DNA from: an uncultured Pelagibacteraceae bacterium
GTDB lineage: Bacteria; Pseudomonadota; Alphaproteobacteria; Pelagibacterales; Pelagibacteraceae
Direction of reading: 5' to 3'
Assembly: GCA_902564265.1 (NCBI GenBank)
Contig: CACFAI010000004.1
Coordinates: forward strand, 27,501-91,500
DNA: 64,000 nucleotides
How positions within the stretch are numbered: the first letter of the stretch is position 1; every line of letters begins with the position of its first letter. Both the position numbers and the translations under genes were made by a program. Shown here piece by piece: positions 1,587 through 27,905 of the stretch. The notes below the pieces were generated by a model. It did not search any database. It was not told where the DNA came from and saw only the letters and a program-made list of their open reading frames with translations.

Positions 1587-2705
1587 ATGAAAAAAAAGGA
1601 AATTTTAATATTCATTTCAGATGAGGGGTTTGGTCATGCAGTCCGACAAAGAGCTTTGATTAAGTCTTTACTAAAAAAAAATAAAGGGTTGTCAATAAAA
1701 GTTATCACTTCAAAAAAGATAATTCTTTTAAAAGAAACTTTTAAAAATCGTATAAGCTATTTCCATCACCATAATCTTATTGAGACAATTAAAAATGATG
1801 ATGGATCTATCAATAAAGTTAAAACAAAAAAAATGTTTCTGAATTGGTATAAAAAAAAGAAAATTTGGGTTAAAACAATGAAGGAAAAGTTCCCAAAACC
1901 AAATTTTATTGTCTCAGACTCTGTTCCCCAAGCCTTTGATTTGGCAAAAGAGTTAAATGTAAAGTCGATAAACATTTCCCATTTCACTTGGGATTGGTTT
2001 TATAAAAAACATTTTTTAGAAAAGAAAAAAAAAGATTTTGTTTTTAAGGAGCTTATGAATAGTTACAACCTAGCCAAAAAATTTTTAATACTTCCGTTAA
2101 CACCTTCTGAAATTATAAAAAATTTTGAGAAAAAATGCATAAATATAAATTTAATCATAAGTGATTTTAAAATTATACAAAAGAAAAGATATAAAAATTT
2201 TGTTTGTGTAATAATGGATAATGGAACCAATACTCTCTCAAAATTAATCAAAGAGTCAGTTCCATACCTAAATAAAATTAAAAATGTGGATTTTTATGTT
2301 GGAATTAAAGATTATGATAATAAAATAAAAAAACACATTTCTTTATCAAAAAATATTTACCCAATTCACGGATTAAAAAAAATTCACCATACTATTCCTT
2401 ACGCAGATTTTGTAATTGCACGGGCTGGGTTTAATACTATTACTGAAACCTTAGTCCTCAATAAACCTTCAATTTTTTTTAATGAAACAAAAAATGAAGA
2501 AACATCACATAATATTAAAATGTTGCAGAAGTTTGGTATCGCAAGTATAATTAAAAAAAATGAATTTAAAAAAAAAATTGTTAAAAAAATTAATTATTTC
2601 ATAAAAAACGATTATAATATTTTACGTCAAAAAATAATTAATGCTAAATTTTTATCAAATGGGTCTGAAAATGCCTCAAACTTTATATTAAAAGAACTCA
2701 AATGA
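1587..2705 (+). CDS. GxGH-type GT-B fold protein (PseG/MurG-like), possibly nucleotide-sugar hydrolase or glycosyltransferase
   Basis: A 372-residue protein. Residues 12-29 carry DEGFGHAVRQRALIKSLL, the glycine-rich loop with His and Arg shared by PseG (UDP-sugar hydrolase of pseudaminic acid synthesis) and MurG-type transferases. Near the C-terminus, ARAGFNTITE resembles the donor-sugar binding segment of MurG relatives. Its stop overlaps the NeuB-like start in an ATGA, so the two are probably translationally coupled. No separate NeuC or PseG gene is visible, so this protein could supply the NeuB substrate; a glycosyltransferase role is equally possible. A second member of this type lies at 17311. 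Confidence 0.6.
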   Translation: MKKKEILIFISDEGFGHAVRQRALIKSLLKKNKGLSIKVITSKKIILLKETFKNRISYFHHHNLIETIKNDDGSINKVKTKKMFLNWYKKKKIWVKTMKEKFPKPNFIVSDSVPQAFDLAKELNVKSINISHFTWDWFYKKHFLEKKKKDFVFKELMNSYNLAKKFLILPLTPSEIIKNFEKKCININLIISDFKIIQKKRYKNFVCVIMDNGTNTLSKLIKESVPYLNKIKNVDFYVGIKDYDNKIKKHISLSKNIYPIHGLKKIHHTIPYADFVIARAGFNTITETLVLNKPSIFFNETKNEETSHNIKMLQKFGIASIIKKNEFKKKIVKKINYFIKNDYNILRQKIINAKFLSNGSENASNFILKELK

Positions 2706-3667
2706 CAGATATAATAGCGGAGTTATGTCAAAATCACCAAGGTGATAAAAAAATATTAGATGAGATGGTTGCTGCAGCCGCAGAATCGGGTGCTGATTTT
2801 GCGAAGATACAATCGATGCAATCTAGTGAAATTACGAAAAGAGATAGATTTGAGAAAGGATTAATTGAGGGTGGAAAAACAAAAGTGATAAAACGACCAT
2901 ATCAAGATGAGTTTAATAGACTAAAACCACTAGACCTAAGTGATGACGACCATCATTTTTTTATTGAAAAATGTGGAAAATATAAAATTAAACCTTTAAC
3001 AACTATTTTTACAAGACAAAGGCTTAAATTCTTAAAAACTCTTGAATTCAAAACTATAAAAGTGTCAAGTTTTGATTGTGCATCATTCAAGTTAGTTGAT
3101 GAGTTGGCAAATTCAAATTTTGATAGATTAATAATATCTACAGGTGCAACATACGATCGGGAAATAGAGAAAACAGTAAATATTCTTAAAAAAAGAAATC
3201 AAAAATTTACACTTTTACATTGTATATCAATATATCCGACCCCTCTCAAAGAAGCTCATTTAAGTAGAATAGCTTATCTTAAAAAGCTGAACAATGATGT
3301 TGGAATTAGTGACCATTCAAATTATGATCTAGACGGCCCAAAACTCTCCTTAGCCGCAGTTTATTTTGGGGCAACTACTGTAGAAAAACATTTTACATTA
3401 TTAGAAAAAAGTAAAACAAAAGATGGAGTGGTTTCAGTAAATCCTTCGGAATTAAAAGAACTTGTGAAATTGTGTAAAGCTTCAAAGAATGATCAAAAAA
3501 AATATATTGAAGACAATATACCAGAATTAGAAAAAATAATGTTAGGATCGTCTAATAGAGAATTATCCGACATAGAATTATTAAATCGGGACTATTATCA
3601 AGGTAGATTCGCAAGCTTTAACAACAAAGGCGTTCCAATTTTTAATTGGGAAGATACAAAATTTTAA
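2702..3667 (+). CDS. N-acetylneuraminate synthase family protein (NeuB/PseI/LegI-like)
   Basis: A 321-residue TIM-barrel synthase that would condense phosphoenolpyruvate with a six-carbon amino sugar to give a nine-carbon nonulosonic acid. Family marks are AELCQNHQGD at the N-terminus, a DFAKIQ strand, ISDHS and EKHFTL. It is slightly short: after the barrel there is only a brief tail where sialate synthases usually carry a SAF (antifreeze-like) domain, so that domain looks absent or much reduced. The start overlaps the upstream gene by four bases. The partner cytidylyltransferase is at 15615. The exact nonulosonate (Neu, Pse, Leg or another) cannot be told from sequence. Confidence 0.85.
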   Translation: MTDIIAELCQNHQGDKKILDEMVAAAAESGADFAKIQSMQSSEITKRDRFEKGLIEGGKTKVIKRPYQDEFNRLKPLDLSDDDHHFFIEKCGKYKIKPLTTIFTRQRLKFLKTLEFKTIKVSSFDCASFKLVDELANSNFDRLIISTGATYDREIEKTVNILKKRNQKFTLLHCISIYPTPLKEAHLSRIAYLKKLNNDVGISDHSNYDLDGPKLSLAAVYFGATTVEKHFTLLEKSKTKDGVVSVNPSELKELVKLCKASKNDQKKYIEDNIPELEKIMLGSSNRELSDIELLNRDYYQGRFASFNNKGVPIFNWEDTKF

Positions 3668-3695
3668 AAATATTTTTTTTGATATCCAATTACAA

Positions 3696-4997
3696 ATGAA
3701 TAATCAATTTTTGTATATAAGCATTGAAAACTCTAATAGAGAAATTCTTCCAAAATTGTTAGTTGTCAAGGAAGCGTTAAAAAAAAATTTTAATATAGTT
3801 ATAGGGAATAGAAATGTATTACACTCGATCATGAGATACTTGCCAGAAGGTGCGCTTTTAGAGAAAAGTTTACATTACACTTATGAGCCTTTTTTTAAAG
3901 ATATATCAAAAATTGGTTTCAAGATTTTCGCGCTTGACGAGGAAGCGTTAACAATAGCTTCAATTGAACAGTATATGAAACTTAATTATTTTAAAAATAA
4001 TGAAAAGTATCTGAATACCTTTTTTTTAAGTAATTTTAAACAACAAGAAATGTTAATGACTTCTAATGTAAATAGTTCAAAGCTTTATTTAACTGGAACT
4101 CCAAAATTCGAAATATATAAAAAAAAATATAGGAATATTTTTGAACAAGAAACAAATAAAATTAAAAAAAAATATGGTAAATTCATTTTAGTGACATCAC
4201 GTTTTGCACACATAAATCCAAATATGAGCTCTCTTGATGATGTTGATAAACTTGACCCAGTATATCTAAGCACGAGTAGGGAAATTTTTAAAAAATTAAT
4301 AAAACTTACAACTGATCTATCTGAAGAATTTAGTGGCATTAACATAATTTATAGACCTCATCCAAGTGAAAATGTAAATAATTTAAAAAAAATTTTTAAA
4401 AATTATAAAAATATAAAAGTTGTTTATGAGGGAAACGTAGCTCCTTGGATATTAGGATCAATTTTAATAATTCATAATAGATGTACAACAGGATTAGAGG
4501 GAATTTTATTGAATAAACATGTAATTTCTTTTGACCCAGTTGACTACAAAAGTATACATTCAAAATTTTTCAAAATTCTAGGTCATAGATGCAAAACTTC
4601 AGATGATGTAATTAAATTAACAAAAAAAATTATTAAAAAAAAAAAAGTAAAATACAAATATGATAAGCAGATTATGGAAAAGTATATTTATAAATTCGAT
4701 AGCAATAAACCACATAAAAAAATTATAGATTTAATTGAAAAAAAACTAGAAAAAAAAAGATTGTACCTGAGTAAATTAAAAAGGTTTTTTTTACTTCTAG
4801 TTGGAATTAAAAAAAATCTGGCCTTTAATTTACGATTGATTTTAAAAAAAAAAAGGACTGTTTATCAATATCAAAAATTTGGAAAACTTAATAAAAAAAT
4901 TTTGGAAAATAAAATGAATCTAATTTTTAAAAATGAAAACAGACAAAATTATAAAATTTATAATTTATGTAGACAATTATTTTTAATCAAAAAATAA
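3696..4997 (+). CDS. surface carbohydrate biosynthesis protein, putative GT-B transferase (copy 1)
   Basis: A 433-residue paralogue of the protein at 10451. Shared blocks include FALDEEAL, FILVTSRFAHINPN, a YRPHPSE motif and CTTGLEGILLNK. The RPHP plus TTxLE pair is typical of CDP-glycerol glycerophosphotransferase, polysialyltransferase and KpsC-like Kdo transferase folds, where it lines the nucleotide-phosphate pocket. With NeuB- and NeuA-like genes nearby, transfer of a CMP-activated sugar is plausible but unproven. The last 100 residues are Lys-rich, suggesting membrane or nucleic-acid-like charge contacts; I see no membrane helix. Confidence 0.6.
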   Translation: MNNQFLYISIENSNREILPKLLVVKEALKKNFNIVIGNRNVLHSIMRYLPEGALLEKSLHYTYEPFFKDISKIGFKIFALDEEALTIASIEQYMKLNYFKNNEKYLNTFFLSNFKQQEMLMTSNVNSSKLYLTGTPKFEIYKKKYRNIFEQETNKIKKKYGKFILVTSRFAHINPNMSSLDDVDKLDPVYLSTSREIFKKLIKLTTDLSEEFSGINIIYRPHPSENVNNLKKIFKNYKNIKVVYEGNVAPWILGSILIIHNRCTTGLEGILLNKHVISFDPVDYKSIHSKFFKILGHRCKTSDDVIKLTKKIIKKKKVKYKYDKQIMEKYIYKFDSNKPHKKIIDLIEKKLEKKRLYLSKLKRFFLLLVGIKKNLAFNLRLILKKKRTVYQYQKFGKLNKKILENKMNLIFKNENRQNYKIYNLCRQLFLIKK

Positions 4998-5000
4998 AAA

Positions 5001-6026
5001 ATGGCGCAAAAATTTACTGATAGATATGGAAATACCTTTAAAGTTGATGTTAAGAATCATTTAATTAAATTTTTAAATCCTACATCACGGGGAACAAAAT
5101 ATTACGATGTTCCACCTGACAAAAATATTACCAAAATTCAATATGGGAGAATTTTGTTACAAATACATCAAATTTTACATTTGTTTAAATCTTTAAATGT
5201 AAGTTTAAAAAATAAAAAGTTTTTAGATATAGGAACTGGAAATGGAATGATCCCAAAAATAATTTCATTAATAACCCCCATTAAATTAGCCGTAGGAATA
5301 GATCCATTTTTAGATAAAGAACATAAAACAAGTTGGCAAAAGCATAGCCATCTTGTTGCACAAAAATATATTTTAAAATTTATAAAAAAAAATAATTTAG
5401 ACTTTCATACATATTCTAAAAAATTAAAGTTTGAAAATTTTTCGTTGGTGCCATCAAAATTAAAAGTTAAACTTAATTGCAAGGAAAAATATCAATTTTT
5501 TAAACTTTCAGCCCATTCTGCAAACAAAATTAACCACAAGTTTGATTTTGTATATTTAAAATCTATAGAGCATTTTAATAATTGGGAAAAAATGTTTAAA
5601 ATTTTATCCAAAATAACAAAAAAAAAATCCTTAATCTTATTCAAACACAGATCATTTTTTTCTTATTTAGGACCTCATCGATATTCAACTTCTGGTATTC
5701 CTTGGGGGCATGTTTTGTTAAAAGATAATGATTACGAGAAATATATAAAAAAATTTCATAAAAATAGGTCTAAAGAAATGATAAATTTTTTTTATAATGG
5801 ATTATCTTATCCAAGAATTTCAGTAAACGAACTTTTAATCCTAGCCGCAAAGAATGGATTTAAGTCCAAACTTATTATTAATGAGCCTCCAAGATATCTA
5901 AAAAAAATTTTAAATTTTTCAAATAGCATAAAAAACTTTTGGAACATTGTGAATAAAAATTATCCAAAAGTTTCCTCTGACGAGGTCTTTAGTGGCATGT
6001 ATCATATTGTTTTAGAAAGAGTGTAA
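5001..6026 (+). CDS. class I SAM-dependent methyltransferase
   Basis: A 341-residue protein with SAM-binding motif I at FLDIGTGNGMIPKI (near residue 74), an acidic strand end in GIDPF, and a post-core FDFVYLKSIEHFNNWEKMFKIL segment typical of Methyltransf_11/25-type Rossmann enzymes. It has no membrane segment, so it is probably cytoplasmic. It sits three bases after the surface-carbohydrate gene and eight bases before an AsnB-like gene, so a sugar or lipid-linked glycan intermediate is the likely acceptor. The acceptor specificity is unknown. Confidence 0.7.
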   Translation: MAQKFTDRYGNTFKVDVKNHLIKFLNPTSRGTKYYDVPPDKNITKIQYGRILLQIHQILHLFKSLNVSLKNKKFLDIGTGNGMIPKIISLITPIKLAVGIDPFLDKEHKTSWQKHSHLVAQKYILKFIKKNNLDFHTYSKKLKFENFSLVPSKLKVKLNCKEKYQFFKLSAHSANKINHKFDFVYLKSIEHFNNWEKMFKILSKITKKKSLILFKHRSFFSYLGPHRYSTSGIPWGHVLLKDNDYEKYIKKFHKNRSKEMINFFYNGLSYPRISVNELLILAAKNGFKSKLIINEPPRYLKKILNFSNSIKNFWNIVNKNYPKVSSDEVFSGMYHIVLERV

Positions 6027-6033
6027 TTTTATC

Positions 6034-7827
6034 ATGTGCGGTTTTTTTTTGAATACTCACAAAAATCAAAGTTTCGATAAATTTAAACACTTGGCTAGTT
6101 TAATTAATAAAAGAGGCCCAGATTTTAATAAGATTATAAATTTAGAAAATATAAAGTTAGCACACTTTAGGTTAAAAATATTAGATACTAACAAAAGATC
6201 CAACCAGCCATTTTGTGACAAGAATAAAAGATATTTTTTATTATTTAATGGAGAAATTTATAATTATTTAAGTCTAAAAAAAAAATATTCTTTAGTATGT
6301 AATACTTCCTCAGATACCGAAGTTTTGTTTTTATTATTGATAAAAATTGGTTTAAAAAAAACATTAAAAGAAATTGAGGGAATGTTTTCGTTTGTTTTCC
6401 TTGACACTAAATTAAAAAAAATCTTATGTGCAAGAGATCATTTTGGTCAAAAACCATTTTATTATTTTTACAATAAGTCTGGCTTAATATGTTCCACGAA
6501 TTTAAAACCAATTGTAAAGTCTCTCGAAAACATATCTTTCAATAAAAAAAATGTTTTCAAATACTTATGTTCTTCAGGAATATTAGAAAGCAATCAAACT
6601 ATTTTTAAAAATATTTATGCTCTAAAAGCGGGACACTTTATGATTTATAAAAAAAACAAGCTAATTATAAAAAGATATTTTCATCCAGCAGATCTTTTTG
6701 ATATTAAATTATACAATAGACTTAAAAAAAATTCTTTTTCAGAAATTACAAAAAAAATGTCTCAAAATATTAATAATTCTATTAATAAACACTTAATAAG
6801 CGATGTACCTATCGGTGCTTGTTTGAGCGGGGGTATCGACTCGTCTTTAATTACTTATTATGCGTTAAAAAATAATAAGTACGTAAAAATATTCTCAGGA
6901 TTTTCAAAAAAAATTGAAAAAATTCCTAAAAAGGTAATACCAAGACTTTTAAAGAAATTAAGTACAAAAAAGTTTTATAAAATTAATCATAGTCATAAAG
7001 ATTATTTAGTAAACTTACAGAAACTTTTACTCTTTTCATATACACCTAGTCGGTGGGGGGGTGGTGTACCAATGAGTAAAATATGTGAAGTTGCTAAAAA
7101 AAAAGGGGTAAGTGTTTTATTAAGTGGGGATGGAGTAGATGAGATATCCGGAGGTTATAATACTATTAATCAAATTTTCAAAAATCCTCAATTAAAAGAA
7201 TTTCATTCAATAATATCTTTAGATAAGAAAAATATTTTTTATACTACAAAAATTGATAATGATTTTCGAAGATATCTTTATAAAGAAAAAAGATACATAT
7301 TAGAAAAATTGAAAAAAATAAAAAATAAAACAGAGCAATTTAAACAGCTTACTATGTTACTTGATATGAGTATTTTTTTACAATCATGTACCCTTCCTCA
7401 TAGCGATGAATATTCGATGTTTAAATCAGTGGAGTTAAGGAATCCGTGGCTAGACATAAAATTAGTAGAATTTGTTATTAATTTGCAAAGCAATCTTAAA
7501 GTTAGCCAAAAAAAAAATAAACCTGTTAATAAATATGTTTTTAAAGAATTAGCAAAAAAAACTATTGGTAAATTTATTGACCAACCAAAAGAAGGAACTA
7601 GGAACTACTCAAAAAAAATATCAAATCTTAAGTTTTGGGATTTCAATAAATTTGAATTAAGGAAAATATTAAATGATTTAAAAAAACCAAATATTTTTTG
7701 TAAATTTGATTATAAAACTATATTTAAATTAGTTAGTTTAGAAATAATTTATAGAGATATGAAAAATATTAGATATTCTATTTTAAAAAATGGTATTACC
7801 AAGGAAGGATATAGAAATTTATTATGA
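6034..7827 (+). CDS. glutamine-hydrolysing asparagine synthase family amidotransferase (copy 1)
   Basis: A 597-residue AsnB-type enzyme. Cys2 follows the initiator Met (MCGFF) as the glutaminase nucleophile. FNGEIYN and the following segment belong to the N-terminal Ntn domain. The synthetase domain has the pyrophosphate loop SGGIDSS (from Ser265) and SGDGVDEISGGY. E. coli AsnB has about 554 residues. In glycan clusters such enzymes often amidate sugar carboxylates instead of making free asparagine. With a UDP-sugar dehydrogenase at 12630 and nonulosonates here, sugar carboxylates are available, so I favour that role. A diverged second copy is at 13829. Confidence 0.8.
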   Translation: MCGFFLNTHKNQSFDKFKHLASLINKRGPDFNKIINLENIKLAHFRLKILDTNKRSNQPFCDKNKRYFLLFNGEIYNYLSLKKKYSLVCNTSSDTEVLFLLLIKIGLKKTLKEIEGMFSFVFLDTKLKKILCARDHFGQKPFYYFYNKSGLICSTNLKPIVKSLENISFNKKNVFKYLCSSGILESNQTIFKNIYALKAGHFMIYKKNKLIIKRYFHPADLFDIKLYNRLKKNSFSEITKKMSQNINNSINKHLISDVPIGACLSGGIDSSLITYYALKNNKYVKIFSGFSKKIEKIPKKVIPRLLKKLSTKKFYKINHSHKDYLVNLQKLLLFSYTPSRWGGGVPMSKICEVAKKKGVSVLLSGDGVDEISGGYNTINQIFKNPQLKEFHSIISLDKKNIFYTTKIDNDFRRYLYKEKRYILEKLKKIKNKTEQFKQLTMLLDMSIFLQSCTLPHSDEYSMFKSVELRNPWLDIKLVEFVINLQSNLKVSQKKNKPVNKYVFKELAKKTIGKFIDQPKEGTRNYSKKISNLKFWDFNKFELRKILNDLKKPNIFCKFDYKTIFKLVSLEIIYRDMKNIRYSILKNGITKEGYRNLL

Positions 7828-8546
7828 AAAAGAACCGGTATAAAGTGGACAAATCCATCGTTGCAAAAAATTCATCATGGACCTTTTCTGGAAATGTTGC
7901 AAAAAATTTTGATAAACATATAGACAAATCTGTACCGTTATATGGTTGGTCCCACGATTTAGGCCTTAAAATCTCTGATTTTTTTGTTAAAAAAAACTCC
8001 AAAATTCACGATTTAGGATGTTCCACGGGTACTTTTATAAAAAAAATAAATTTAAGACATAATAATAAAAAAATATTTATAAACGGCTACGATATTGAAA
8101 AAAAAATGGTGGCATTAGCAAAAAAAAATAATAAAAAAAGTAAAAACGTTAAAATTAAATTTGAAAACATAAGTGGAGCAAACTTTAAAAATTCTGACTT
8201 TATTACTAGTTTTTATACTATTCAATTTATACATCCGTCTCAACGTCAAAAAATTTTTAACAAAATCTTCAATGAGTTAAATTGGGGAGGTGGATTTCTT
8301 TTTTTTGAAAAAGTTCGAGCTCCTGATGCCAGATTCCAAGATATGATGGGACTTATTTACAACGATTTTAAATTGGATAATAATTTTTCTCCAAGCGAAA
8401 TTATCGCTAAGTCAAGAAGCCTTAAAGGTGTTTTAGAACCCTTTTCATCAAAAGCAAATATAGATCTTCTTAAAAGAGCAGGTTTTAAAGATATTACAAC
8501 TGTTTTTAAATTTATTTGTTTTGAAGGTTTTCTGGCAATTAAATAA
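7824..8546 (+). CDS. CmoA-like methyltransferase family protein (carboxy-SAM synthase homologue)
   Basis: A 240-residue protein that can be aligned from memory with E. coli CmoA over nearly its whole length. Shared features are WTFSGNVAKNFD with SVPLY near the N-terminus, SAM motif I HDLGCSTG, the QFIHPSQRQ and DFK segments, and a terminal GFLAIK. Arg198 aligns with CmoA Arg199, which I recall contacting the extra carboxylate of carboxy-SAM, and Tyr40 aligns with CmoA Tyr39. CmoA normally works with CmoB in tRNA wobble modification, but this gene is embedded in a glycan cluster and overlaps the AsnB-like gene by four bases (ATGA). It may make carboxy-SAM or use it on sugars. Confidence 0.7.
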   Translation: MKKNRYKVDKSIVAKNSSWTFSGNVAKNFDKHIDKSVPLYGWSHDLGLKISDFFVKKNSKIHDLGCSTGTFIKKINLRHNNKKIFINGYDIEKKMVALAKKNNKKSKNVKIKFENISGANFKNSDFITSFYTIQFIHPSQRQKIFNKIFNELNWGGGFLFFEKVRAPDARFQDMMGLIYNDFKLDNNFSPSEIIAKSRSLKGVLEPFSSKANIDLLKRAGFKDITTVFKFICFEGFLAIK

Positions 8547-8553
8547 AATTATT

Positions 8554-9561
8554 ATGCTACTTCGGGAATACCCTTACTGTGTTTTTTGTGGAAACAAAAA
8601 TTTCAAAAAAACTAAAAAACAAAGTTTAAAATCAAATTTTTACCTTGATGCAATTATTGAAGACCTAAATTTATCTAAAAATATTTTTAAAAAAATTAAA
8701 ACTTTTCAATGCAAAAATTGTTTCATTCTACAAAACAGTCCTTGGTTCGAAAAAAAAATTGCAAAAAAAATATATTCAAACATTTATGGTCAACACAATA
8801 GAAGTTGGAGCAATGTTTTGAATTTTTTAAAATATGGCAAAGTCCCATATCATGGAGAACTATTCGAAATGCTTAATAAGAATATTAAAATTAAGAATTA
8901 TGGTGAATTTAATAGCCCTTTTATGGGAATTTTTTTGAACTATTTTCTTAAAGAATTACCTTATAACAAAAAGAAATATTTGAACTTATATTTTAATTTA
9001 ATCAAATACCTCAGTTCAAGACAAGTCGCAGGTAAAACAAAAAATCAACAAAAAAAAGATTCTGCCAAAAGTGCCAAATCTTTAAAAATTGTAAATAAAA
9101 TAAAAGGGAATTTAAAAAGAAAGGTTAATAAATTTTTGATTACTGATAACTCATCTTTAATTTGGGGTCAAAATGATAATCATAAATCTGTTAACAGTAA
9201 ATCTTTTGCAAATGAACTATTAGACGTCGAGATAATGAATATTGAAGAAAAAATAGAAATAAAATTCGATTTGTTTGGTATTTTCCATACTCTTGACCAC
9301 ACATACCATCCACAGAAAATTCTTAATTATGCACTAGAAAAAAGTAAATTTGTTGTAATTTATTGTCACGTTAATAAAGAGGTAGAAAAACAACACCTTT
9401 TTTCTATCACTAATGAATTTTTAAATTATCTTAAAAATAAAAAAATTTTTTCAGTTGATCTTACTAAAATTATAAATAAAAAATATAAATCTCCGGAGCT
9501 TTATTTTTTATGCACCAAACAAAAAAACTTAAAAAATATAATTGATAAATTTCATGTTTAA
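8554..9561 (+). CDS. zinc-ribbon protein with degenerate methyltransferase-like domain
   Basis: A 335-residue protein. I chose ATG 8554; an upstream TTG at 8521 would overlap the previous gene and add an unconserved-looking leader. The N-terminus has CVFCGNKNF and later CKNCF, a CxxC...CxxC zinc site like the Methyltransf_13 domain of sugar C-methyltransferases. The C-terminal half has FDLFGIFHTLDHTYHPQKIL, the usual region after the SAM domain. The expected glycine-rich SAM loop is replaced by GEFNSPFMG, so SAM binding is doubtful. It overlaps the next gene by eight bases. Probably a diverged relative of sugar C-methyltransferases. Confidence 0.5.
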   Translation: MLLREYPYCVFCGNKNFKKTKKQSLKSNFYLDAIIEDLNLSKNIFKKIKTFQCKNCFILQNSPWFEKKIAKKIYSNIYGQHNRSWSNVLNFLKYGKVPYHGELFEMLNKNIKIKNYGEFNSPFMGIFLNYFLKELPYNKKKYLNLYFNLIKYLSSRQVAGKTKNQQKKDSAKSAKSLKIVNKIKGNLKRKVNKFLITDNSSLIWGQNDNHKSVNSKSFANELLDVEIMNIEEKIEIKFDLFGIFHTLDHTYHPQKILNYALEKSKFVVIYCHVNKEVEKQHLFSITNEFLNYLKNKKIFSVDLTKIINKKYKSPELYFLCTKQKNLKNIIDKFHV

Positions 9562-10450
9562 TAAAAATTTCATTAATAATATAGATAATTTTTTGGGAAA
9601 ATTAATTTTTAAAAGCTTTAATTCTTTTAGATACTGTATATTTGACTCAATAATTTACCATAAAAGTTTAAAAAAAAATTTGAAGAACAATGAAGTTATT
9701 ATGAATTTTAATAATAGAGGCTTTTGTAAAATTAAATCAATTGACAATGATGACATTACTGAATTAAAAAAAATTTTCTTAGATGATAATAATGCATCCT
9801 ATAAGGAAAACAGCTATACATTCAAGCCTTCCCTGAATTCAGAAAAAAGTAAAAATCTAATCAAAAATATTATTCAAAAAAATTTAAGTGAAATATTAAA
9901 AAATTTGAAGTCTTACTATAATAAAAACATATACTTGACCAACGTAGAATTAAAAAAAACATTTCATATTAATAAGGAGCATGAAGAAAATGAGTATTTT
10001 AACAATTTTTTTCATATAGACTCATATCTTAGAACCCATTTTAAAATATTTGTTAATGTGAGCGATATCGAAGAGAAGAATGGGCCCACAGAGGTTTTTG
10101 ATCTTTTAAAAACAAAAAAAATAAGACAATTTAATATTTTTGAAAACAAGAGGGGGAATTTACAGATTCCTTCCAAAATTCGTTCGTACTTAAACACCGG
10201 AAAAGCAGGAGAGGTTTTATTATGTAACACATCTCTTTGTCTTCATAGAGCAACAAATCCAGAAAAAGGAAATACAAGAGAAAATTTAATATTAACCTTT
10301 GTTTCATATCCCGGTCCATCAGATGATTTATTTCATTATGAAAAAATTGACCCAGACTCGATATGGACAAATAAAAACTCTATTACTAAAACATTAGCAA
10401 AACCAAGGCGATATTCAGAAGTCATATCTTTACTGAAAAAATTCGTATAG
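9554..10450 (+). CDS. phytanoyl-CoA dioxygenase (PhyH)-like Fe(II)/2-oxoglutarate oxygenase
   Basis: A 298-residue protein from ATG 9554; a TTG at 9542 is in frame but less likely. The metal triad is visible as His154-x-Asp156 (FFHIDSYL) and His231 (SLCLHRATNP), followed by Arg242 (NTRENL), placed to bind 2-oxoglutarate. These are the expected positions for PhyH-family hydroxylases. It overlaps the preceding gene by eight bases and ends directly before the next start, so it belongs to the same operon. Hydroxylation of a sugar or lipid intermediate of the surface glycan is inferred from context. Confidence 0.7.
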   Translation: MFNKNFINNIDNFLGKLIFKSFNSFRYCIFDSIIYHKSLKKNLKNNEVIMNFNNRGFCKIKSIDNDDITELKKIFLDDNNASYKENSYTFKPSLNSEKSKNLIKNIIQKNLSEILKNLKSYYNKNIYLTNVELKKTFHINKEHEENEYFNNFFHIDSYLRTHFKIFVNVSDIEEKNGPTEVFDLLKTKKIRQFNIFENKRGNLQIPSKIRSYLNTGKAGEVLLCNTSLCLHRATNPEKGNTRENLILTFVSYPGPSDDLFHYEKIDPDSIWTNKNSITKTLAKPRRYSEVISLLKKFV

Positions 10451-11821
10451 ATGAGAATTTATTTTCCAATCGAAGTTAAAAACAGGGAGCTAATTGCACG
10501 CGTTTACTTTGCTTTAAGGTGCGCGCTTAAAGGAGCCTCTGTAGTAATAGGTACAAAAAATGTTCTCTTAAGAAAAATGAACTTAATGAGAAAAGGAATA
10601 ATTTTTTTTAAAAGTATACAACCAAATCAATATCAACATATTAAAAAATTTAGAAATTGTGGTTTTAAAATTGCAAGTCTTGATGAGGAGGGTTTAATGT
10701 TTTTTACTAATGAAAATTACGTTAGAAGATTTAGAGAAGAAAATTTTCAATTAACAGATATATATTTTTCTTGGGGAGAAAAAGAGAAAAAAGCTCTTTT
10801 ATCTAAATTCAAAAAATACGAGAAATGTATTAAAGTTGTTGGAAATTCGAGACTAGACATACTTAAAAGACCTATATCAAAAATATTTTCTGATGAGGCA
10901 GAAATTTTGAGAAAAAGATATGGTGACTTTATTCTATTAACCACTAAATTTGCTAGACATAATCCAATTAGACGAGGATGGTCAACATACTATATAGGTC
11001 AATTGAGAGCAGGATACGTGGCTTCAGAACATAATAAACAATATGCAATTTTAAGTGAATATCACGAGAAAAGGAATTTGAAAGAATTTATTAATTTCAT
11101 AAAAATATTTTCTAATAAATTTCCAGAAAAAAAACTTGTTGTACGTATTCATCCTGCTGAAGATAGATCTATTTGGATTAAAAACGTTTCAAAACTAAAA
11201 AACGTTTATTTAAGTTACGATAATCTTTCAACAAATTCATATATTTTAGCTAGCAAATTTGTAATACAATCAAATTGTACTACATCCTTAGAATCATTTT
11301 TGTTAAATAAGCTTTCAGTAAATTTTTTACCTTATAACAATGATAAGGTTGAATATACTGTCCCAAAATTAGTTTCAAAAAATATTTTTAGCCAACATGA
11401 GATGGTAGAATTTATTAAAAATTTTGAAGATTGTGAAAAAAGACAATTATCTGAAATTGATAACAATAATTTAAAAGATCTTGCTTATAATGTATTTACT
11501 GATAATTGTATTGACCAAATGTACGAGGAATTAGAAAAAATCTTTCATCCTAAAAAAGATAAGGATAGATTTTCTAATATCTTCTCGTTCCTTTTTTTCA
11601 AAATAGAAAATATACTTAAAAACTTTTACTTTACCCTTACGCAAAGAACTGATTTTGATAAGGGATTACGAAAATTACAGAAACAAAAAATACCAAGTCT
11701 TTCTTTAAAAGAAATTACATTACTAAAAGATGAAATATGCAAAAAAATTGATGTTAATCCTCAAACAATAAAAGTCCTTGAGAAATATCCTGCATTTTAT
11801 GAATTCAGCTCAAGTAACTAA
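10451..11821 (+). CDS. surface carbohydrate biosynthesis protein, putative GT-B transferase (copy 2)
   Basis: A 456-residue paralogue of the protein at 3696, with matching blocks ASLDEEGL, FILLTTKFARHNPI, VVRIHPAED and CTTSLESFLLNK. Divergence is high, so the duplication is old or the copies were acquired separately. The HPAE and TTSLE motifs occupy the nucleotide-phosphate binding positions of CDP-glycerol-transferase-like and KpsC-like folds. The start codon begins at the base after the PhyH-like stop. Transfer of a charged sugar is the most plausible role; a direct enzymatic assignment is not possible from sequence. Confidence 0.6.
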   Translation: MRIYFPIEVKNRELIARVYFALRCALKGASVVIGTKNVLLRKMNLMRKGIIFFKSIQPNQYQHIKKFRNCGFKIASLDEEGLMFFTNENYVRRFREENFQLTDIYFSWGEKEKKALLSKFKKYEKCIKVVGNSRLDILKRPISKIFSDEAEILRKRYGDFILLTTKFARHNPIRRGWSTYYIGQLRAGYVASEHNKQYAILSEYHEKRNLKEFINFIKIFSNKFPEKKLVVRIHPAEDRSIWIKNVSKLKNVYLSYDNLSTNSYILASKFVIQSNCTTSLESFLLNKLSVNFLPYNNDKVEYTVPKLVSKNIFSQHEMVEFIKNFEDCEKRQLSEIDNNNLKDLAYNVFTDNCIDQMYEELEKIFHPKKDKDRFSNIFSFLFFKIENILKNFYFTLTQRTDFDKGLRKLQKQKIPSLSLKEITLLKDEICKKIDVNPQTIKVLEKYPAFYEFSSSN

Positions 11822-11824
11822 CTT

Positions 11825-12625
11825 ATGAATTTTAAGATAAAATTTCCACCAAAAAAAAATAAAAAATATATCAAGAATTTTTTTAAAAAAAAAGGTCTAC
11901 ATGAATTTATAAGATTTTCAAAAAAAAGAGAACAAAAAATTAATGAATTAGAAATGCAAGAAAGTTTTAAACCTGAACTTGACGATCTATATAGATTATA
12001 TCAATTTATCAAACTAAATAATAGAACCACAATTTTAGAATTTGGCTCTGGTTGGTCATCTTTATTATTTGCGCTCGCTTTAAGTGAATTAAAAAAAGAG
12101 AAATTTTCAAAAACAAAAAATTTAAGAAGAAATAATTTATTTGAATTATTTGTACTCGAAAATGAAAAAAAATATCTAAAAAAAATCAAAAAAAAATTTA
12201 TGGAAAAAAAATATTCTACTTTTACATCAAAAGTGCATTTTCATTTTTCAAATGTGAAAATGACAAATTATCAAGGGAATATTGCCACTGAATATGAGAA
12301 ACTTCCTCTATGCAACCCTGACTTTATTTATATTGATGGTCCTGGTCAATTTAACGTTAAGGGTAATATTAATGGTATATCCACTAGACATTATGACATG
12401 ATGCCAATGATTTGTGACATCCTTAAAATTGAGTATTTCTTAATTCCAGGAACAATTATTGTTGTAGATGGCAGAACTGCTAATGCAATTTATTTAAAAA
12501 ATAATTTAAAAAGAAAATGGCAGTATTTTAATGATAGAAAAAATGATCAACATATATTTTGTCTTAGAGATAAATCATTAGGATATGTAAATGATAGGCT
12601 TATAAGTTTCTATAAATCAAAATAA
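11825..12625 (+). CDS. putative class I methyltransferase-like protein
   Basis: A 266-residue protein. The motif TILEFGSGWSSLLFALAL (around residues 60-77) resembles a SAM-binding loop, and PDFIYIDGPG and IIVVDGR resemble the acidic strand ends of Methyltransf_24-like Rossmann enzymes. The smaller protein at 21536 shares FEFGSGSSSIL, DLILVDGR and a closing ILLDD segment, so the two are probably distant paralogues. Activity on a sugar is inferred from position only. Confidence 0.5.
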   Translation: MNFKIKFPPKKNKKYIKNFFKKKGLHEFIRFSKKREQKINELEMQESFKPELDDLYRLYQFIKLNNRTTILEFGSGWSSLLFALALSELKKEKFSKTKNLRRNNLFELFVLENEKKYLKKIKKKFMEKKYSTFTSKVHFHFSNVKMTNYQGNIATEYEKLPLCNPDFIYIDGPGQFNVKGNINGISTRHYDMMPMICDILKIEYFLIPGTIIVVDGRTANAIYLKNNLKRKWQYFNDRKNDQHIFCLRDKSLGYVNDRLISFYKSK

Positions 12626-12629
12626 TAAA

Positions 12630-13814
12630 ATGGTTGATAACAGAAAAATTTCAATAATAGGTGGTGGTGGACATATTGGTTTACCATTATCAGTATTACT
12701 ATTCAATCAAGGCTATAAAGTAAATTTAGTTGATATTAACAAGCAAAATCTTCAGTTGATTAAAAAGGGCAAGGCACCTTTTTATGAAAAAGATATTGAA
12801 AAACATTTAAAAAAAACAATTCAAAATAAACGTTTTGAAACAAGTCATGTGTTAGAGACAATTAAAGATAGTAAATTTATTTTTATTTGTATTGGAACAC
12901 CTATAAGCAAAAAATTAAGACCAGATCTCAAAAAATTTTTCAATTTAATAATTTCAGTTAAAAAAATAATGAATAATAATAGTCATTTGATTATAAGAAG
13001 TTCAATTGCACCTGGAACATTTAGGAAAATTTTTAAAGCTCTTAATAAAAATAATACTTTTACAAATTTGTCTTATTGCCCAGAAAGAGTCCTTCAGGGT
13101 CAATCGATGATTGAACTTTCTAGAATTCCTCAGATAATTTCGAGTTATAATCTGAAAACCCTTAAACATGTTAAAAAACTATTTAGCAAGCTATGTAAGA
13201 CCGTACTAGTTTGCAAACCTGAGGAAGCAGAAATGGCTAAAATCTTGTCCAATGCTTATAGATACATGAATTTTTCAATTGCTAATCAGTTTTTTCAAAT
13301 TTGTGATCAAAATGATTTAAGTTTTGAAAAAATAAGACGATTAATGAGTTTTAACTACAGCCGAGCCAGTGGATTGGCTGCTTCGGGATTTGTTGGTGGA
13401 CCTTGTTTAATGAAAGATACTATGCAACTTAATTATCTAGCTAAAAATAAAAAGAACCTTCTAAAACTCTCGTATGAAGTTAATGAAAATCTACCCAAAT
13501 ATATAGTAAGCAAAATTAAAAAAATTAAGAATTATAAATCAAAAAAGGTTTGTATTTTAGGAAAAACTTTTAAAGCAAATAACGATGATTTGAGAGGATC
13601 TAAGTCTTTGGATTTAATACGAATTTTAAAAAAAAATAAAATTAAACATGAAGTTTATGAGCCCAATCTTGAAAAAAAATCAAAAAAAAAAATAAATTCT
13701 ATGATTGATTCAAGTCACATAATAGTTTTAGCTACCCCTCATAAAGAATTCAAAAAAATTAAGATAAGTAAAAACAAAGTTTTAATTGATACCTCTGGAT
13801 TTTTTCTTAAATAA
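12630..13814 (+). CDS. UDP-glucose/GDP-mannose dehydrogenase family protein (nucleotide-sugar dehydrogenase)
   Basis: A 394-residue NAD-dependent enzyme making a nucleotide-activated uronic acid by two-step oxidation. It shows the N-terminal dinucleotide loop IIGGGGHIGLPL, a middle domain with SSIAPGT and YCPERVLQG, the catalytic Cys259 in GGPCLMKD, and the C-terminal UDP-binding domain starting at CILGKTFKANNDDLRGS. The GPCLxKD form is closer to WecC/TviB-type (UDP-ManNAcA or UDP-GalNAcA) enzymes than to UDP-glucose dehydrogenases, but the substrate is not certain. Its carboxylate product is a logical substrate for the neighbouring AsnB-like amidotransferases. Confidence 0.8.
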   Translation: MVDNRKISIIGGGGHIGLPLSVLLFNQGYKVNLVDINKQNLQLIKKGKAPFYEKDIEKHLKKTIQNKRFETSHVLETIKDSKFIFICIGTPISKKLRPDLKKFFNLIISVKKIMNNNSHLIIRSSIAPGTFRKIFKALNKNNTFTNLSYCPERVLQGQSMIELSRIPQIISSYNLKTLKHVKKLFSKLCKTVLVCKPEEAEMAKILSNAYRYMNFSIANQFFQICDQNDLSFEKIRRLMSFNYSRASGLAASGFVGGPCLMKDTMQLNYLAKNKKNLLKLSYEVNENLPKYIVSKIKKIKNYKSKKVCILGKTFKANNDDLRGSKSLDLIRILKKNKIKHEVYEPNLEKKSKKKINSMIDSSHIIVLATPHKEFKKIKISKNKVLIDTSGFFLK

Positions 13815-13828
13815 AATTTTTCTAATTT

Positions 13829-15610
13829 ATGTGTGGCTTTAGCGGTTATTTTTCGATTAATAAAAAAAATAAATTTACAAATATTTCCCAATATCATTCT
13901 TTAAAACATAGAGGACCTGATGAATATAATATTTTTAAAAATGATAACTTTTATTGTCGATTTTATAGATTAAATATCATTGGTGGTACCGATGGGAGAC
14001 AACCAATGTTATCCAAAAACAAAAGATTTTTAATGGTTTTTAATGGAGAGATTTATAATTTTAAAGAATTATCAGAGGAATATTTGTCCTCAAAACAAAA
14101 TTATAAAAGTGACACTAAAGTTCTACTAGAGCTTTTTTCAAAATATGGATTGGAGATTATTGAAAAGATCAATGGTATGTTCGCAATAGTTTTATATGAC
14201 TTAAGAAAAAAAAAGATTTACTTAATTAGAGATAGACTTGGAACAAAACCATTATATTATGCATTCAAAAATGGTAACTTATATTTTTCTTCAGAAATTA
14301 AAGGGATTCCTTTATCGAAAAACATTAACAATGGCGTCATAAAAAACTACCTCAATCTGGGTTATTATCCTATTAAAAAAACATTTTTTTCAAATATTTA
14401 CAATTTGAGTGCATCTTCAATTCTAGTTTATTCAAAAAACACGTATAAGATCAGTAAATATTTTGATTTGAAGAAACAAGTTTTATTAAAAAAAAAAATA
14501 GATAAAGAAAAGACAAATGATTTTAAAGAAAAATTTTACTACCTTCTTAATAATTCAATAAAGATAAGGCAAAGAGCAAATAGAAAATTAAATTTCCATT
14601 TAAGTGGCGGAATAGACTCCATTTCTTTACTTATTTTAACTAAAAAATTATGGAAGAAAAATTATGATTTAACTTCAAATACATATTTTTACAAAGGATT
14701 TTCAAATAATGAGAATCATATTTCCAGTAAAATTTGTAAAAAATTGAATATTAAAAATTATCAAGTAGAAATAAATCCAAAAGAAATTCCCAAATTAGCT
14801 GAGGATTTACAATTTTATCAAGATGAACCTTATGGTGGTTTAGCAGCAGTTTCAGAATACAAACAAAACTTAGAGCAAAAAAAACTTGGAAATATTGTAA
14901 GTTTTGAAGGAATAGGAGGTGATGAAATTATAGGGGGTTATAATTCACATTTGTATCTACTTATATGGGATCTGTATCATAATAAAAAAAATAATATATT
15001 ATTAAAAAAATTGATTAAGTTTTCAGGAAAAAATCTTAAACACATATTAAACATAGCCAAGAATTTTATTAGTTCTGGATTAAATGGTAATACTGATTTA
15101 AGTAAAATAAGAAAACTTTATAAATCAAAAAAAATTATTAAAAACAACAATTATTATAATACTATAAATTATAAAGAAATTTTGGATGGTTCTTTGTTTA
15201 GAACTTTGAGATTTAGAGATAGATCTAGTGCAGCATGTGGAAGAGAGCTTAGATTTCCATATTTAGATCATAATCTATTAATACACAGTCTTTCTATGCC
15301 GGCCCATCTAAAGTTTGAAAATGGTTTTACAAAATCTCCATTAAGATCCATAGTTTATAAGGTTGATAAGAATTTATCTATTCAAAAAAAAAGAAGTAAT
15401 AATTCTGCACAAACTACTTGGTTTTTAAATGAGTTAAAAGAATGGGTTCTGGACAATATTAATTCACTATATAACAAAGATGTGATTGAAAAAAAATATT
15501 TTAAAAATATGGAAAAACATTTCAGTTTAAAGACAAAAAATAGTTTTTATCTTTGGCAACTAGTAAACTTAAATTTATTCTTGGATAATATTAAAAAAAA
15601 TTTCTACTGA
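13829..15610 (+). CDS. glutamine-hydrolysing asparagine synthase family amidotransferase (copy 2)
   Basis: A 593-residue AsnB-type enzyme with nucleophile Cys2 (MCGFSGYF), HRGPDE and FNGEIYNF in the glutaminase domain, and pyrophosphate loop SGGIDS (from Ser259) in the synthetase domain, then EGIGGDEIIGGY. Both half-reactions therefore look intact. It follows the uronate dehydrogenase by 14 bases and precedes the NeuA-like gene by four. Amidation of a uronic or nonulosonic acid carboxylate is the favoured role. Divergence from the copy at 6034 suggests a different substrate. Confidence 0.8.
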   Translation: MCGFSGYFSINKKNKFTNISQYHSLKHRGPDEYNIFKNDNFYCRFYRLNIIGGTDGRQPMLSKNKRFLMVFNGEIYNFKELSEEYLSSKQNYKSDTKVLLELFSKYGLEIIEKINGMFAIVLYDLRKKKIYLIRDRLGTKPLYYAFKNGNLYFSSEIKGIPLSKNINNGVIKNYLNLGYYPIKKTFFSNIYNLSASSILVYSKNTYKISKYFDLKKQVLLKKKIDKEKTNDFKEKFYYLLNNSIKIRQRANRKLNFHLSGGIDSISLLILTKKLWKKNYDLTSNTYFYKGFSNNENHISSKICKKLNIKNYQVEINPKEIPKLAEDLQFYQDEPYGGLAAVSEYKQNLEQKKLGNIVSFEGIGGDEIIGGYNSHLYLLIWDLYHNKKNNILLKKLIKFSGKNLKHILNIAKNFISSGLNGNTDLSKIRKLYKSKKIIKNNNYYNTINYKEILDGSLFRTLRFRDRSSAACGRELRFPYLDHNLLIHSLSMPAHLKFENGFTKSPLRSIVYKVDKNLSIQKKRSNNSAQTTWFLNELKEWVLDNINSLYNKDVIEKKYFKNMEKHFSLKTKNSFYLWQLVNLNLFLDNIKKNFY

Positions 15611-15614
15611 ATTA

Positions 15615-16313
15615 ATGATCAGAAATAAAAAAGTAATTTCAATTATACCAGTCCGTAAAGGTTCAACAGGTATAAAAAATAAAAACTTAATACTCATAAA
15701 CGGTAAATCGTTACTAGAAAGGACGATAATATTATCAAAAAAAAACTTTTTAATCGATAAGACTATAGTGAGTACAAACTGTAAAAAAATGTGGAAAATT
15801 GCTAGAAAATATAATTGTACATCGAAAGATTTAAGACCAAAAAATTTATCAACAAAGTATGCTTCTACTATTGATGTAATAAAACATGAAATTAAAAAAA
15901 ATAAACTTAACGATTGTTACATATTACTTCTACAAGTAACATCACCTTTAAGAACATCAGAACTTACTTATAAATTTCTCAAAAGTTTTGAAAAAAATAA
16001 AAATTATAAATCTGCAGCGAGTGCAACTTTTTTTGATCATCCTCACCCATTTAAGGTGCAAATTATTAAAGATAAAAAACTTAAATCATTAATGAATAAA
16101 GAGTCGATGGTTCCAAGACAAAAATTGCGCAGGGTTTTAAAATTAAATGGAATGTTTTATATCGCCTCTAAAAAAGACATAATGAAACAAAAATCATTTT
16201 TTACTAAAAGCACTATGCCATTCATAGTCAATGATGAACATAGTTTAAATTTAGATAATGAATTCGATCTTGTTATGCTTAAGTATTTAAAGAAAAAAAT
16301 TAGGTTTCGATGA
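15615..16313 (+). CDS. acylneuraminate cytidylyltransferase family protein (NeuA/PseF-like)
   Basis: A 232-residue enzyme that would activate a nonulosonic acid with CTP to its CMP form. It has the family N-terminal nucleotide loop IIPVRKGSTGIKNKN and the LLLQVTSPLRTSE block that lines the CTP site, plus LNGMFYIAS late in the domain. The length fits the single-domain enzymes (about 230 residues). Together with the NeuB-like synthase at 2702 it supports nonulosonate use by this locus. It overlaps the next gene by four bases. Confidence 0.85.
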   Translation: MIRNKKVISIIPVRKGSTGIKNKNLILINGKSLLERTIILSKKNFLIDKTIVSTNCKKMWKIARKYNCTSKDLRPKNLSTKYASTIDVIKHEIKKNKLNDCYILLLQVTSPLRTSELTYKFLKSFEKNKNYKSAASATFFDHPHPFKVQIIKDKKLKSLMNKESMVPRQKLRRVLKLNGMFYIASKKDIMKQKSFFTKSTMPFIVNDEHSLNLDNEFDLVMLKYLKKKIRFR

Positions 16314-17314
16314 TCTTAAATAAATATACAAAAAGGATAGTCAAATCAAAAATATTTGACATCAATGTAAAAGAATTACGTGGGAAAGATTTTCATTCAA
16401 ATTTGATTTCCAGAAAAAATTTTATATACAAAAAATTAAAAAAATATTTAACTACAAAAAAAAATATAAAGTGTCTCCTTTGTGGAAGTAAATTAAGTCA
16501 TAGAAATATTTTTAATAAATGGAAAAATTATAAACTTTTCAGTTGTCCTAAATGTGGTTGTGTGTGCACAAATATAGACTTTCAAACTTTTAAACCAGAA
16601 TTTTTTCACGATCTTGAATATAAAAAAAAATATATAAAAAAAAGTATAGGAAAAAATTTTAAATACAGACTAAGTAAATTTGGCAATGAAAGAATAAAAT
16701 ATATTTTCGATAATATAAAATTTAAAACTAAAAAGCCGAATATTCTTGATTTTGCATGTGGTTACGGGGCATTTCTTTATGCTTTAAAAAAAAAGAAAAT
16801 CCGTTCTAAAGGAATTGATTTTGATGACGATAGTGTTGAATTTTGTAAAAAACTTAATCTTAACGTATCGAAAGAAACAATCAGTAAAGAAAAAGACTCT
16901 TCGTTTGATTTAATTACGCTTTTTGACGTTATTGAACATTTACATCAACCAAATGTTTTTCTCAAAAATGCTATTAAAAAACTAAAAAATAAGGGGCATA
17001 TATTACTTTTCACACCTAACATTAATTCCCTATCAAATATTCTTATGGGACACGAACATAACAACTTTGCAATTTTTGACCATGTTTGTTTTTATAATGA
17101 GAAGTCGATCAAATATATTTGTAAGAGGTATGGACTCAAACTTATAAAGTTTGATTATTATGGTCTAGATATTAAGGACTACTTTCAAAAAGTTGAATAT
17201 GAAAATAAAAATTTTAATCAAGATATTTTGAACGATTTTTCTAATTTGACTCAATCTTTTATAGATTTCTCAAAAGCCTCTAACTCAATGAGAATTATTC
17301 TTCAAAAAAAATGA
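16310..17314 (+). CDS. class I SAM-dependent methyltransferase with N-terminal zinc ribbon
   Basis: A 334-residue protein. The N-terminal CLLCGSKL and CPKCGCVC pairs form a probable zinc site. The SAM domain follows with motif I ILDFACGYGAFLYAL, acidic GIDFDDDS, and FDLITLFDVIEHLHQPNVFL, then LFTPN. This architecture is common in sugar methyltransferases of polysaccharide clusters. Start and stop overlap both neighbours by four bases, so it is part of one tightly coupled operon. The zinc-ribbon layout is shared with the degenerate protein at 8554. Confidence 0.75.
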   Translation: MILNKYTKRIVKSKIFDINVKELRGKDFHSNLISRKNFIYKKLKKYLTTKKNIKCLLCGSKLSHRNIFNKWKNYKLFSCPKCGCVCTNIDFQTFKPEFFHDLEYKKKYIKKSIGKNFKYRLSKFGNERIKYIFDNIKFKTKKPNILDFACGYGAFLYALKKKKIRSKGIDFDDDSVEFCKKLNLNVSKETISKEKDSSFDLITLFDVIEHLHQPNVFLKNAIKKLKNKGHILLFTPNINSLSNILMGHEHNNFAIFDHVCFYNEKSIKYICKRYGLKLIKFDYYGLDIKDYFQKVEYENKNFNQDILNDFSNLTQSFIDFSKASNSMRIILQKK

Positions 17315-18306
17315 AAAAAATAGCAATAATAGCAAGCAATAATGGGTTAGGACATATAAGGAGATGTGTAGCTTTAGCAAATAATTTATCTAATAAATTT
17401 GTTGTCTCTATTTATTGTTCTGCAGAAAAAGTAAAAATTTTTAAAATAAAAAGAAATATTAAAATTTTTGATTTTAACATTAATTTTTATAAAAAAAAAA
17501 TGTTGATAAAAAAGAACAATATTCACACTTATTTTAATTTTAAAAGAAAATATGATCTTTATTTAAGCGATAACTATCCTGAGGTAGCATTAAAAAATAA
17601 AAAAAGTGTAATTTTATCAAATTTCTTTTGGCACGATATTTTGAAAATAAATACAAACTATTATAAAAAAATTGAAAAAAAAATTTCTAATAGGCCAATA
17701 ATCCCAAACTATCTTTTTTGCTCAAAATATATCAAAAAAAGATTCAAAATTCATCCAGTTGGTTTTTATGGAAAATTTGAAAACAAAAAATTTAACCCAA
17801 AAAAAAAGGGTATTTTAATTAGTTTTGGAACCTCAAAATTTAAAATGGATGATGAGATAAAAAATCTTCAGGTCAAACTTCAAAATAGACCAAATAAACA
17901 ACTTCCTATTTATTTGGAACCAACTCTTTATTCTAAAACACTTAATGTTCACAATGTTTTAGAAGCTAAATATGACAGAGAAATGTATTCCAAAATTGCA
18001 GTTGCAATAATAAAACCTGGTCTAGGAACAATCACAGATTGTTTAATGAGAGGAATTACAATTTTAACTTATATAAAGGGTCAAAATAAAGAGTTTATAG
18101 AAAATGCAAATATTTTAGAACAAAATTTGATTGGCGTTAATTTTACTTATCTTAATTCGGCCTTAGATTTTGCTACTAAAATTACTTTTGAAAAAAGGTT
18201 TTTAAAAAACAAATTTGAACTTGCAAAAAACTTACGCTGGAATGGTGAAAAAGAAGTAATTAAAATAATTGAAAGAATATTTAAAAATAAACTATTAATA
18301 ACTTAA
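17311..18306 (+). CDS. GxGH-type GT-B fold protein (MurG/PseG-like), copy 2
   Basis: A 331-residue protein opening with KKIAIIASNNGLGHIRRC, the same glycine-His-Arg loop as the protein at 1587. The C-terminal half has LISFGTS and VAIIKPGLGTITDCLMRG, matching the donor-binding half of MurG-like enzymes. It is a second, shorter member of this class and may act as a glycosyltransferase or nucleotide-sugar hydrolase in the nonulosonate route. It overlaps the methyltransferase upstream and abuts the epimerase downstream. Confidence 0.6.
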   Translation: MKKIAIIASNNGLGHIRRCVALANNLSNKFVVSIYCSAEKVKIFKIKRNIKIFDFNINFYKKKMLIKKNNIHTYFNFKRKYDLYLSDNYPEVALKNKKSVILSNFFWHDILKINTNYYKKIEKKISNRPIIPNYLFCSKYIKKRFKIHPVGFYGKFENKKFNPKKKGILISFGTSKFKMDDEIKNLQVKLQNRPNKQLPIYLEPTLYSKTLNVHNVLEAKYDREMYSKIAVAIIKPGLGTITDCLMRGITILTYIKGQNKEFIENANILEQNLIGVNFTYLNSALDFATKITFEKRFLKNKFELAKNLRWNGEKEVIKIIERIFKNKLLIT

Positions 18307-27703: not shown

Positions 27704-27778
27704 GGGCCGTTAGCTCAATAGTAGAGTACTGCATTGACATTGCAGGGGTAGTTGGAGCGTAACCAACACGGCCCACCA
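27704..27778 (+). tRNA. tRNA-Val (GAC), with encoded CCA and atypical elbow
   Basis: A full cloverleaf is drawable: acceptor GGGCCGT pairs with ACGGCCC (7 bp), then discriminator A and encoded CCA. D-stem is GCTC/GAGT with a 7-base loop AATAGTA. Anticodon stem is CTGCA/TGCAG, loop TTGACAT, anticodon GAC at 27736-27738. T-stem is GTTGG/CCAAC with loop AGCGTAA. The D- and T-loops deviate from the usual GG and TTCRA patterns. It starts ten bases after the O-antigen ligase gene. Confidence 0.9.
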
Positions 27779-27828
27779 TTCTAATCACACTTGAATAGAA
27801 TAGAAAAAAGATATAAAGATGTTGCAAA

Positions 27829-27905
27829 GGGCCTGTAGCTCAGTTGGTTAGAGCAGTACACTCATAATGTATTGGTCCCAGGTTCGAGTCCTGGCGGGCC
27901 CACCA
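27829..27905 (+). tRNA. tRNA with CAT anticodon, probably tRNA-Ile2 (lysidine)
   Basis: The cloverleaf has acceptor GGGCCTG/CGGGCCC (one T-G wobble), D-loop AGTTGGTTA, anticodon loop CTCATAA (CAT at 27863-27865), T-loop TTCGAGT, discriminator A and encoded CCA. C4-G69 and C5-G68 are present, the acceptor pairs I recall as TilS determinants in E. coli tRNA-Ile2; elongator Met tRNAs lack them. An elongator tRNA-Met remains possible. Confidence 0.85.

Follow-up and report, generated by a model that had tools for sequence, protein, structure and literature searches.

A CmoA-like protein encoded in a surface-glycan operon of a Pelagibacteraceae genome and its proposed part in carboxymethylation of a surface sugar

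Carboxy-SAM is a rare cofactor; in the literature searched, it was found to serve in the modification of tRNA and of phage DNA and in the making of two natural products. In CmoA, Arg199 forms a salt bridge with the carboxylate of carboxy-SAM (Byrne et al., PMC3663124). An earlier note on the DNA analysed here stated that the cofactor is used only by CmoB; this statement is out of date, since TglF and MccB (PMC10491745) and phage CmoX (PMC12783734) also use it. In the published descriptions of 3-thiaglutamate (TglE/TglF) and Bacillus microcin C (MccS/MccB), carboxy-SAM from a CmoA homologue goes to a dedicated transferase other than CmoB, with peptides or nucleotides as acceptors (PMC10491745). 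The third described system is the CmoA–CmoX–CmoY DNA hypermodification of Synechococcus phage S-B43, in which CmoX is a DNA cytosine-C5 methyltransferase homologue and SpCmoA was shown to make carboxy-SAM, at about ten times the rate of E. coli CmoA; phage CmoAs are often paired with asparagine-synthetase-type ligases, one cluster of which has a glutaminase domain (PMC12783734).

The locus and the proposed pathway

The 917-kb genome that contains the window (the whole 64 000-nucleotide stretch of DNA that was analysed) consists of 32 contigs, is AT-rich and is taken to be SAR11 (Pelagibacteraceae). The genes discussed are listed below.

1587..20366, plus strand: surface-glycan operon around the CmoA-like gene, with all genes on the plus strand
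2702–3667, plus strand: NeuB-family synthase, in the glycan operon
3696–4997 and 10451–11821, plus strand: two surface carbohydrate proteins, in the glycan operon
5001..6026, plus strand: methyltransferase-fold protein (341 aa; Methyltransf_23), proposed carboxymethyltransferase
6034..7827, plus strand: AsnB-like protein (597 aa), a glutamine-dependent amidotransferase with a proposed role in amidating the carboxymethyl group
7824..8546, plus strand: CmoA-like protein (240 aa, ORF intact), proposed carboxy-SAM synthase
13829–15610, plus strand: second AsnB, in the glycan operon and not adjoining the CmoA-like gene
15615–16313, plus strand: cytidylyltransferase-like protein, so named only because its sequence resembles the CTP_transf_3 genes found in relatives

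The CmoA-like gene was confirmed to be embedded in a glycan cluster directly 3' of the AsnB-like gene, as had been noted before, and the two overlap by 4 bp. The AsnB-like gene itself lies 7 bp downstream of the methyltransferase-like gene. Genes for tRNA-Val and tRNA-Met (27704–27905) are located where the glycan island ends on the right and may mark an insertion hot spot.

The arrangement resembles the phage CmoA–CmoX–CmoY system in that asparagine-synthetase-type and methyltransferase-fold enzymes directly adjoin CmoA, and in that both have the type of CmoA that lacks Arg199 and carries a basic residue at position 203. The AsnB of the window has a glutaminase domain, unlike SpCmoY and like the second phage ligase cluster. 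Unlike CmoX, the 5001–6026 protein matches Methyltransf_23 and its setting is a bacterial glycan operon; no match to a DNA methyltransferase family was found among the ten proteins scanned.

Three steps are proposed. The 7824–8546 protein would convert SAM and prephenate to carboxy-SAM as CmoA does, with Lys201 binding the new carboxylate instead of Arg199. The 5001–6026 protein, rather than CmoB, would then place the carboxymethyl group on a surface-glycan precursor, at either a hydroxyl or an amine, a role suggested by gene linkage, and the AsnB-like protein would turn the carboxylate into an amide to give a carbamoylmethyl-decorated sugar. The pathway as a whole (carboxy-SAM made, glycan precursor carboxymethylated, product amidated by AsnB) is given a probability of about 0.5. 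A glycan rather than tRNA is the likely acceptor. In the Tgl and Mcc pathways TglE and MccS supply carboxy-SAM for a small-molecule or peptide natural product (PMC10491745), and the present operon might do the same, but no gene of such a pathway was recognised nearby and the flanks, unlike those systems, hold glycan-synthesis genes (NeuB, glycosyltransferase-like and surface-carbohydrate genes); a product resembling 3-thiaglutamate or microcin C is considered very improbable.

If the pathway is correct, glycan use would constitute a new acceptor class for carboxy-SAM and a new route to carboxyl and amide groups on surface sugars, which in bacteria are recognised by phages and grazers. Against the pathway, the open-access literature searched yielded no account of bacterial O-antigens with carboxymethyl or carbamoylmethyl sugars, although earlier reports may have been missed in it.

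CmoA identity and the basic residue at position 203

The 7824–8546 protein scored 133.5 bits (E = 1e-38) against the TIGR00740 profile, the curated cut-off of which (193.3 bits) was not reached, and matched E. coli CmoA (PDB entry 4gek) over residues 11–240 with E = 8e-25. The nearest solved structures by sequence were the CmoAs of E. coli and Haemophilus. An AlphaFold model (pLDDT 85, with low confidence at residues 200–204) gave CmoA as its top structural matches (Z 29.8 and 29.6, 2.2–2.3 Å, 221 residues), the next family following at Z 26.8. The match to CmoA along the whole length, claimed in the earlier note, thus holds by profile, sequence and structural comparison, and so does the alignment of Tyr40, which falls on CmoA Tyr39. 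The CmoA residues Tyr39, Asp62, Gly64, Ser66, Asp89, Phe137 and Glu164 are kept in the alignment, and Asp117 is altered. Fold, length and most SAM-binding residues are therefore common to the protein and to canonical CmoA (E. coli 4gek/4iwn, H. influenzae 1im8). Unlike the canonical enzymes, it has Ser197 for Arg199, Lys for Glu at 203 and Phe for Asn132, falls below the TIGR00740 cut-off and comes from a genome without a detected CmoB.

In the tree, a further Pelagibacteraceae record (L041) grouped with the protein of the window. A close relative was not found among viral contigs, and the phage relatives were 28–38% identical.

The assignment of Arg198 as the equivalent of CmoA Arg199 was one residue off and was ruled out by the alignment, in which Ser197 occupies that column. 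The Arg198 column is variable among the 61 clade members (Arg 28, Lys 14, Gln 5, Asn 4, Leu 4, Ser 3, Gly 2, Ile 1). The codons concerned are as follows.

8412..8417, plus strand: two codons, for Ser197 in the column of CmoA Arg199 and for Arg198 in a variable column
8424..8426, plus strand: Lys201 codon, equivalent to position 203 of E. coli CmoA; this residue is the candidate binder of the carboxylate

Arg at position 199 was found in 0/61 clade members, while position 203 is basic in 61/61 of the aligned sequences (Lys in 50, Arg in 11); all four canonical CmoA sequences in the comparison have Arg199 and Glu203. SpCmoA has Glu199 and Arg203 and fell on this clade's side of the tree with a support of 94/91, although its branch is long and its exact place unsure. 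The protein of the window shows the pattern of these Lys/Arg203-type CmoAs, namely no Arg199, a basic residue at 203 and a position on SpCmoA's side of the tree. On the simplest reading of the alignment, the basic residue has moved by one helical turn from 199 to 203 (Lys201 here), where it may replace the Arg199 salt bridge. Because Arg199 appears to have been exchanged for Lys/Arg203, as in a proven enzyme, homologue screens keyed to Arg199 would overlook many proteins, a large family, that probably make carboxy-SAM. Among phage CmoA homologues both types occur: those of Erwinia and Alcaligenes phages (L097, L099) are of the Arg199/Glu203 type, and those of Staphylococcus, faecal and Synechococcus phages (L096, L098, L100, L095) have Arg203 without Arg199.

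In four relatives (L009, L010, L021, L024) the clade CmoA lies directly between putative trhO and cmoB genes and is the only CmoA found in the genome; trhO is close to cmoA in cyanobacteria (Sakai et al., PMC6599085). CmoB was found over the cut-off in 10/45 relatives' genomes, eight of which have clade-type CmoA only. Given the same residue pattern in SpCmoA and the four relatives flanked by trhO and cmoB, the CmoA-like protein of the window is quite probably a carboxy-SAM synthase, placed among members for which this activity is shown or strongly implied. The genome of Sulfuricurvum (L044) has a canonical CmoA with CmoB and, in addition, a clade CmoA within a NeuB-bearing cluster, immediately upstream of a zinc-ribbon methyltransferase; this speaks for a separate function of the clade CmoA in that genome.

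The loss of Arg199 could instead mean that carboxy-SAM synthesis has been lost and that the protein is an ordinary SAM-dependent methyltransferase acting on a sugar or its precursor. The profile score below the TIGR00740 cut-off would accord with this, as would a fold that is common to ordinary methyltransferases and the frequency of sugar methyltransferases in glycan clusters. SpCmoA, however, is equally devoid of Arg199 and has proven activity (PMC12783734), and the invariably basic position 203 and the clade members between trhO and cmoB also speak against an ordinary methyltransferase, which is regarded as unlikely.

CmoB, TrhO and the candidate user of carboxy-SAM

The search for a separate cmoA/cmoB pair, which had been suggested as a check, gave neither a CmoB over the cut-off nor a second CmoA in the genome of the window (79% complete; incompleteness of the genomes weakens any single absence). 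Across 397 Pelagibacteraceae genomes, CmoB over the cut-off and canonical CmoA were each found in none, and the CmoA-like gene was found in 24. TrhO, the tRNA U34 hydroxylase, is encoded outside the window in the same genome (C1:132305–132583) and was found in 160/197 Pelagibacteraceae genomes.

The best candidate for the user of carboxy-SAM is the 5001–6026 protein, because of its co-occurrence and linkage with the CmoA-like gene. Its family was found in four of the 397 family genomes, all of which are among the 24 with a CmoA-like gene (hypergeometric P = 1e-5, or 1.7e-4 with the genome of the window removed), and in all four it lies within ~3 kb of both AsnB and the CmoA-like gene; the counts behind such linkage tests are modest and the loci were selected for holding a CmoA-like gene. 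The order methyltransferase–AsnB–CmoA recurs in a Rhodospirillaceae genome (L006), and a fragment of a 5001-type gene lies near the CmoA-like gene in L041. Among 385 genomes sampled across the class, the family was detected only in the genome of the window. The presumed strand 4 of this family ends in an invariant Lys187, where the other methyltransferases compared have a non-basic residue; as a guess, this lysine may bind the carboxylate. The structure model of the 5001–6026 protein (pLDDT 49) was too poor for use. On balance the protein is somewhat more likely than not to be the carboxymethyltransferase.

A sole CmoA-like gene without a CmoB partner, in a genome that also encodes TrhO, the maker of hydroxyuridine 34, would also suit a tRNA module in which the 5001–6026 protein acts as a CmoB analogue on that nucleoside and AsnB amidates the product. 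Against this, TrhO is nearly universal in the family whereas the CmoA-like gene is confined to 24/397 genomes and the module sits inside variable glycan islands; the methyltransferase neighbours also differ from locus to locus, which is a better fit to varied glycan acceptors than to a single tRNA position. The tRNA module is accordingly rated as quite unlikely. Carboxymethylation of a surface sugar, as first put forward in the earlier note, is the best supported reading and is in keeping with the lack of a detected CmoB, while the residue argument originally attached to it was wrong and better partners exist than the zinc-ribbon gene.

AsnB, the amide step and other neighbours

The AsnB-like protein has Asn_synthase and GATase_7 domains, exceeds the TIGR01536 cut-off and carries a Cys2 nucleophile and an SGGIDSS loop. 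AsnB is at most two genes away from the CmoA-like gene in 8/21 independent SAR11 loci, and the link to AsnB drawn in the earlier note is borne out by its enrichment there: within the same islands, AsnB occupied 9/83 slots near CmoA-like genes versus 3/237 farther away (Fisher p = 4e-4). Pfam tallies agree, with AsnB in 9/70 near and outside the 25 commonest families far from the CmoA-like gene. The AsnB proteins of the SAR11 loci are mostly 22–45% identical to one another, so different AsnB lineages have been recruited repeatedly. Beyond SAR11, AsnB was found within ~3 kb of the CmoA-like gene in five loci (L006, L011, L016, L045, L048), and the Cys2 nucleophile of glutamine-dependent enzymes is present in every AsnB checked.

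The enrichment of AsnB, its Cys2 nucleophile and the pairing of CmoA with ligases in phages together suggest, by analogy, that the carboxymethyl group is converted to a primary amide. The Asn_synthase and glutaminase domains and Cys2 are common to the 6034–7827 protein and to the AsnB-like amidotransferases of polysaccharide clusters in general; unlike these, it recurrently adjoins a CmoA-like gene, in five loci as a triplet with a 5001-type methyltransferase. It counts against the link that islands of this kind often hold AsnB and methyltransferase genes for unrelated reasons. Whether AsnB acts on the same carboxylate is put at even odds. Carboxy-SAM could serve the glycan while AsnB targets another carboxylate, such as that of a uronic or nonulosonic acid, with no substrate in common: besides a NeuB-family synthase, the operon encodes a second AsnB apart from the CmoA-like gene, and in many loci the CmoA-like gene lacks a nearby AsnB. 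The specific enrichment of AsnB of different lineages near CmoA-like genes within the same islands, and the pairing of CmoA with such ligases in the phage system, make separate substrates improbable. A broader proposal, that Lys/Arg203-type CmoAs feed varied carboxymethyltransferases of the methyltransferase fold in the surface-polysaccharide clusters of many phyla and that AsnBs cap the product as an amide, is advanced tentatively.

The link to the zinc-ribbon gene (8554–9561), drawn alongside that to AsnB, did not hold: this gene does not follow the CmoA-like gene in relatives of the window locus and was rejected as lead partner. Its nearest homologue (in L123) lies four genes from the CmoA-like gene on the opposite strand. 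The 8554–9561 protein gave no Pfam or NCBIfam match, and its SAM-binding motif looks degenerate (ENSPFMG-like sequence). In other loci a CmoA-like gene adjoins a TIGR04371 sugar O-methyltransferase or, in six cases that include one near-identical pair, lies immediately upstream of a zinc-ribbon methyltransferase. TIGR04371 was rejected as an exclusive partner, being present in 17/87 SAR11 genomes of which only one (G092) bears a CmoA-like gene, and a general enrichment of Pfam methyltransferases near CmoA-like genes was not strong (6/70 near versus 6/129 far).

Conserved neighbours of other kinds were seen in more distant genomes. In Xanthobacteraceae, Binatota and Chromatiaceae (L030, L032, L037, L040) a conserved gene pair, encoding a radical-SAM-like protein of ~500 aa and a protein of 610–871 aa, lies upstream of the clade CmoA, a different setting in which glycan genes were not noted. 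A canonical CmoA adjoining CmoB is also present in the Chromatiaceae genome. Two Flavobacteriaceae loci (L029, L034) have a conserved 437-aa protein, a candidate carboxy-SAM user, encoded 10 bp after the CmoA-like gene (10001–10687). In three filamentous cyanobacteria (L012, L014, L018), a common protein of 283–291 aa is encoded directly 3' of the CmoA-like gene.
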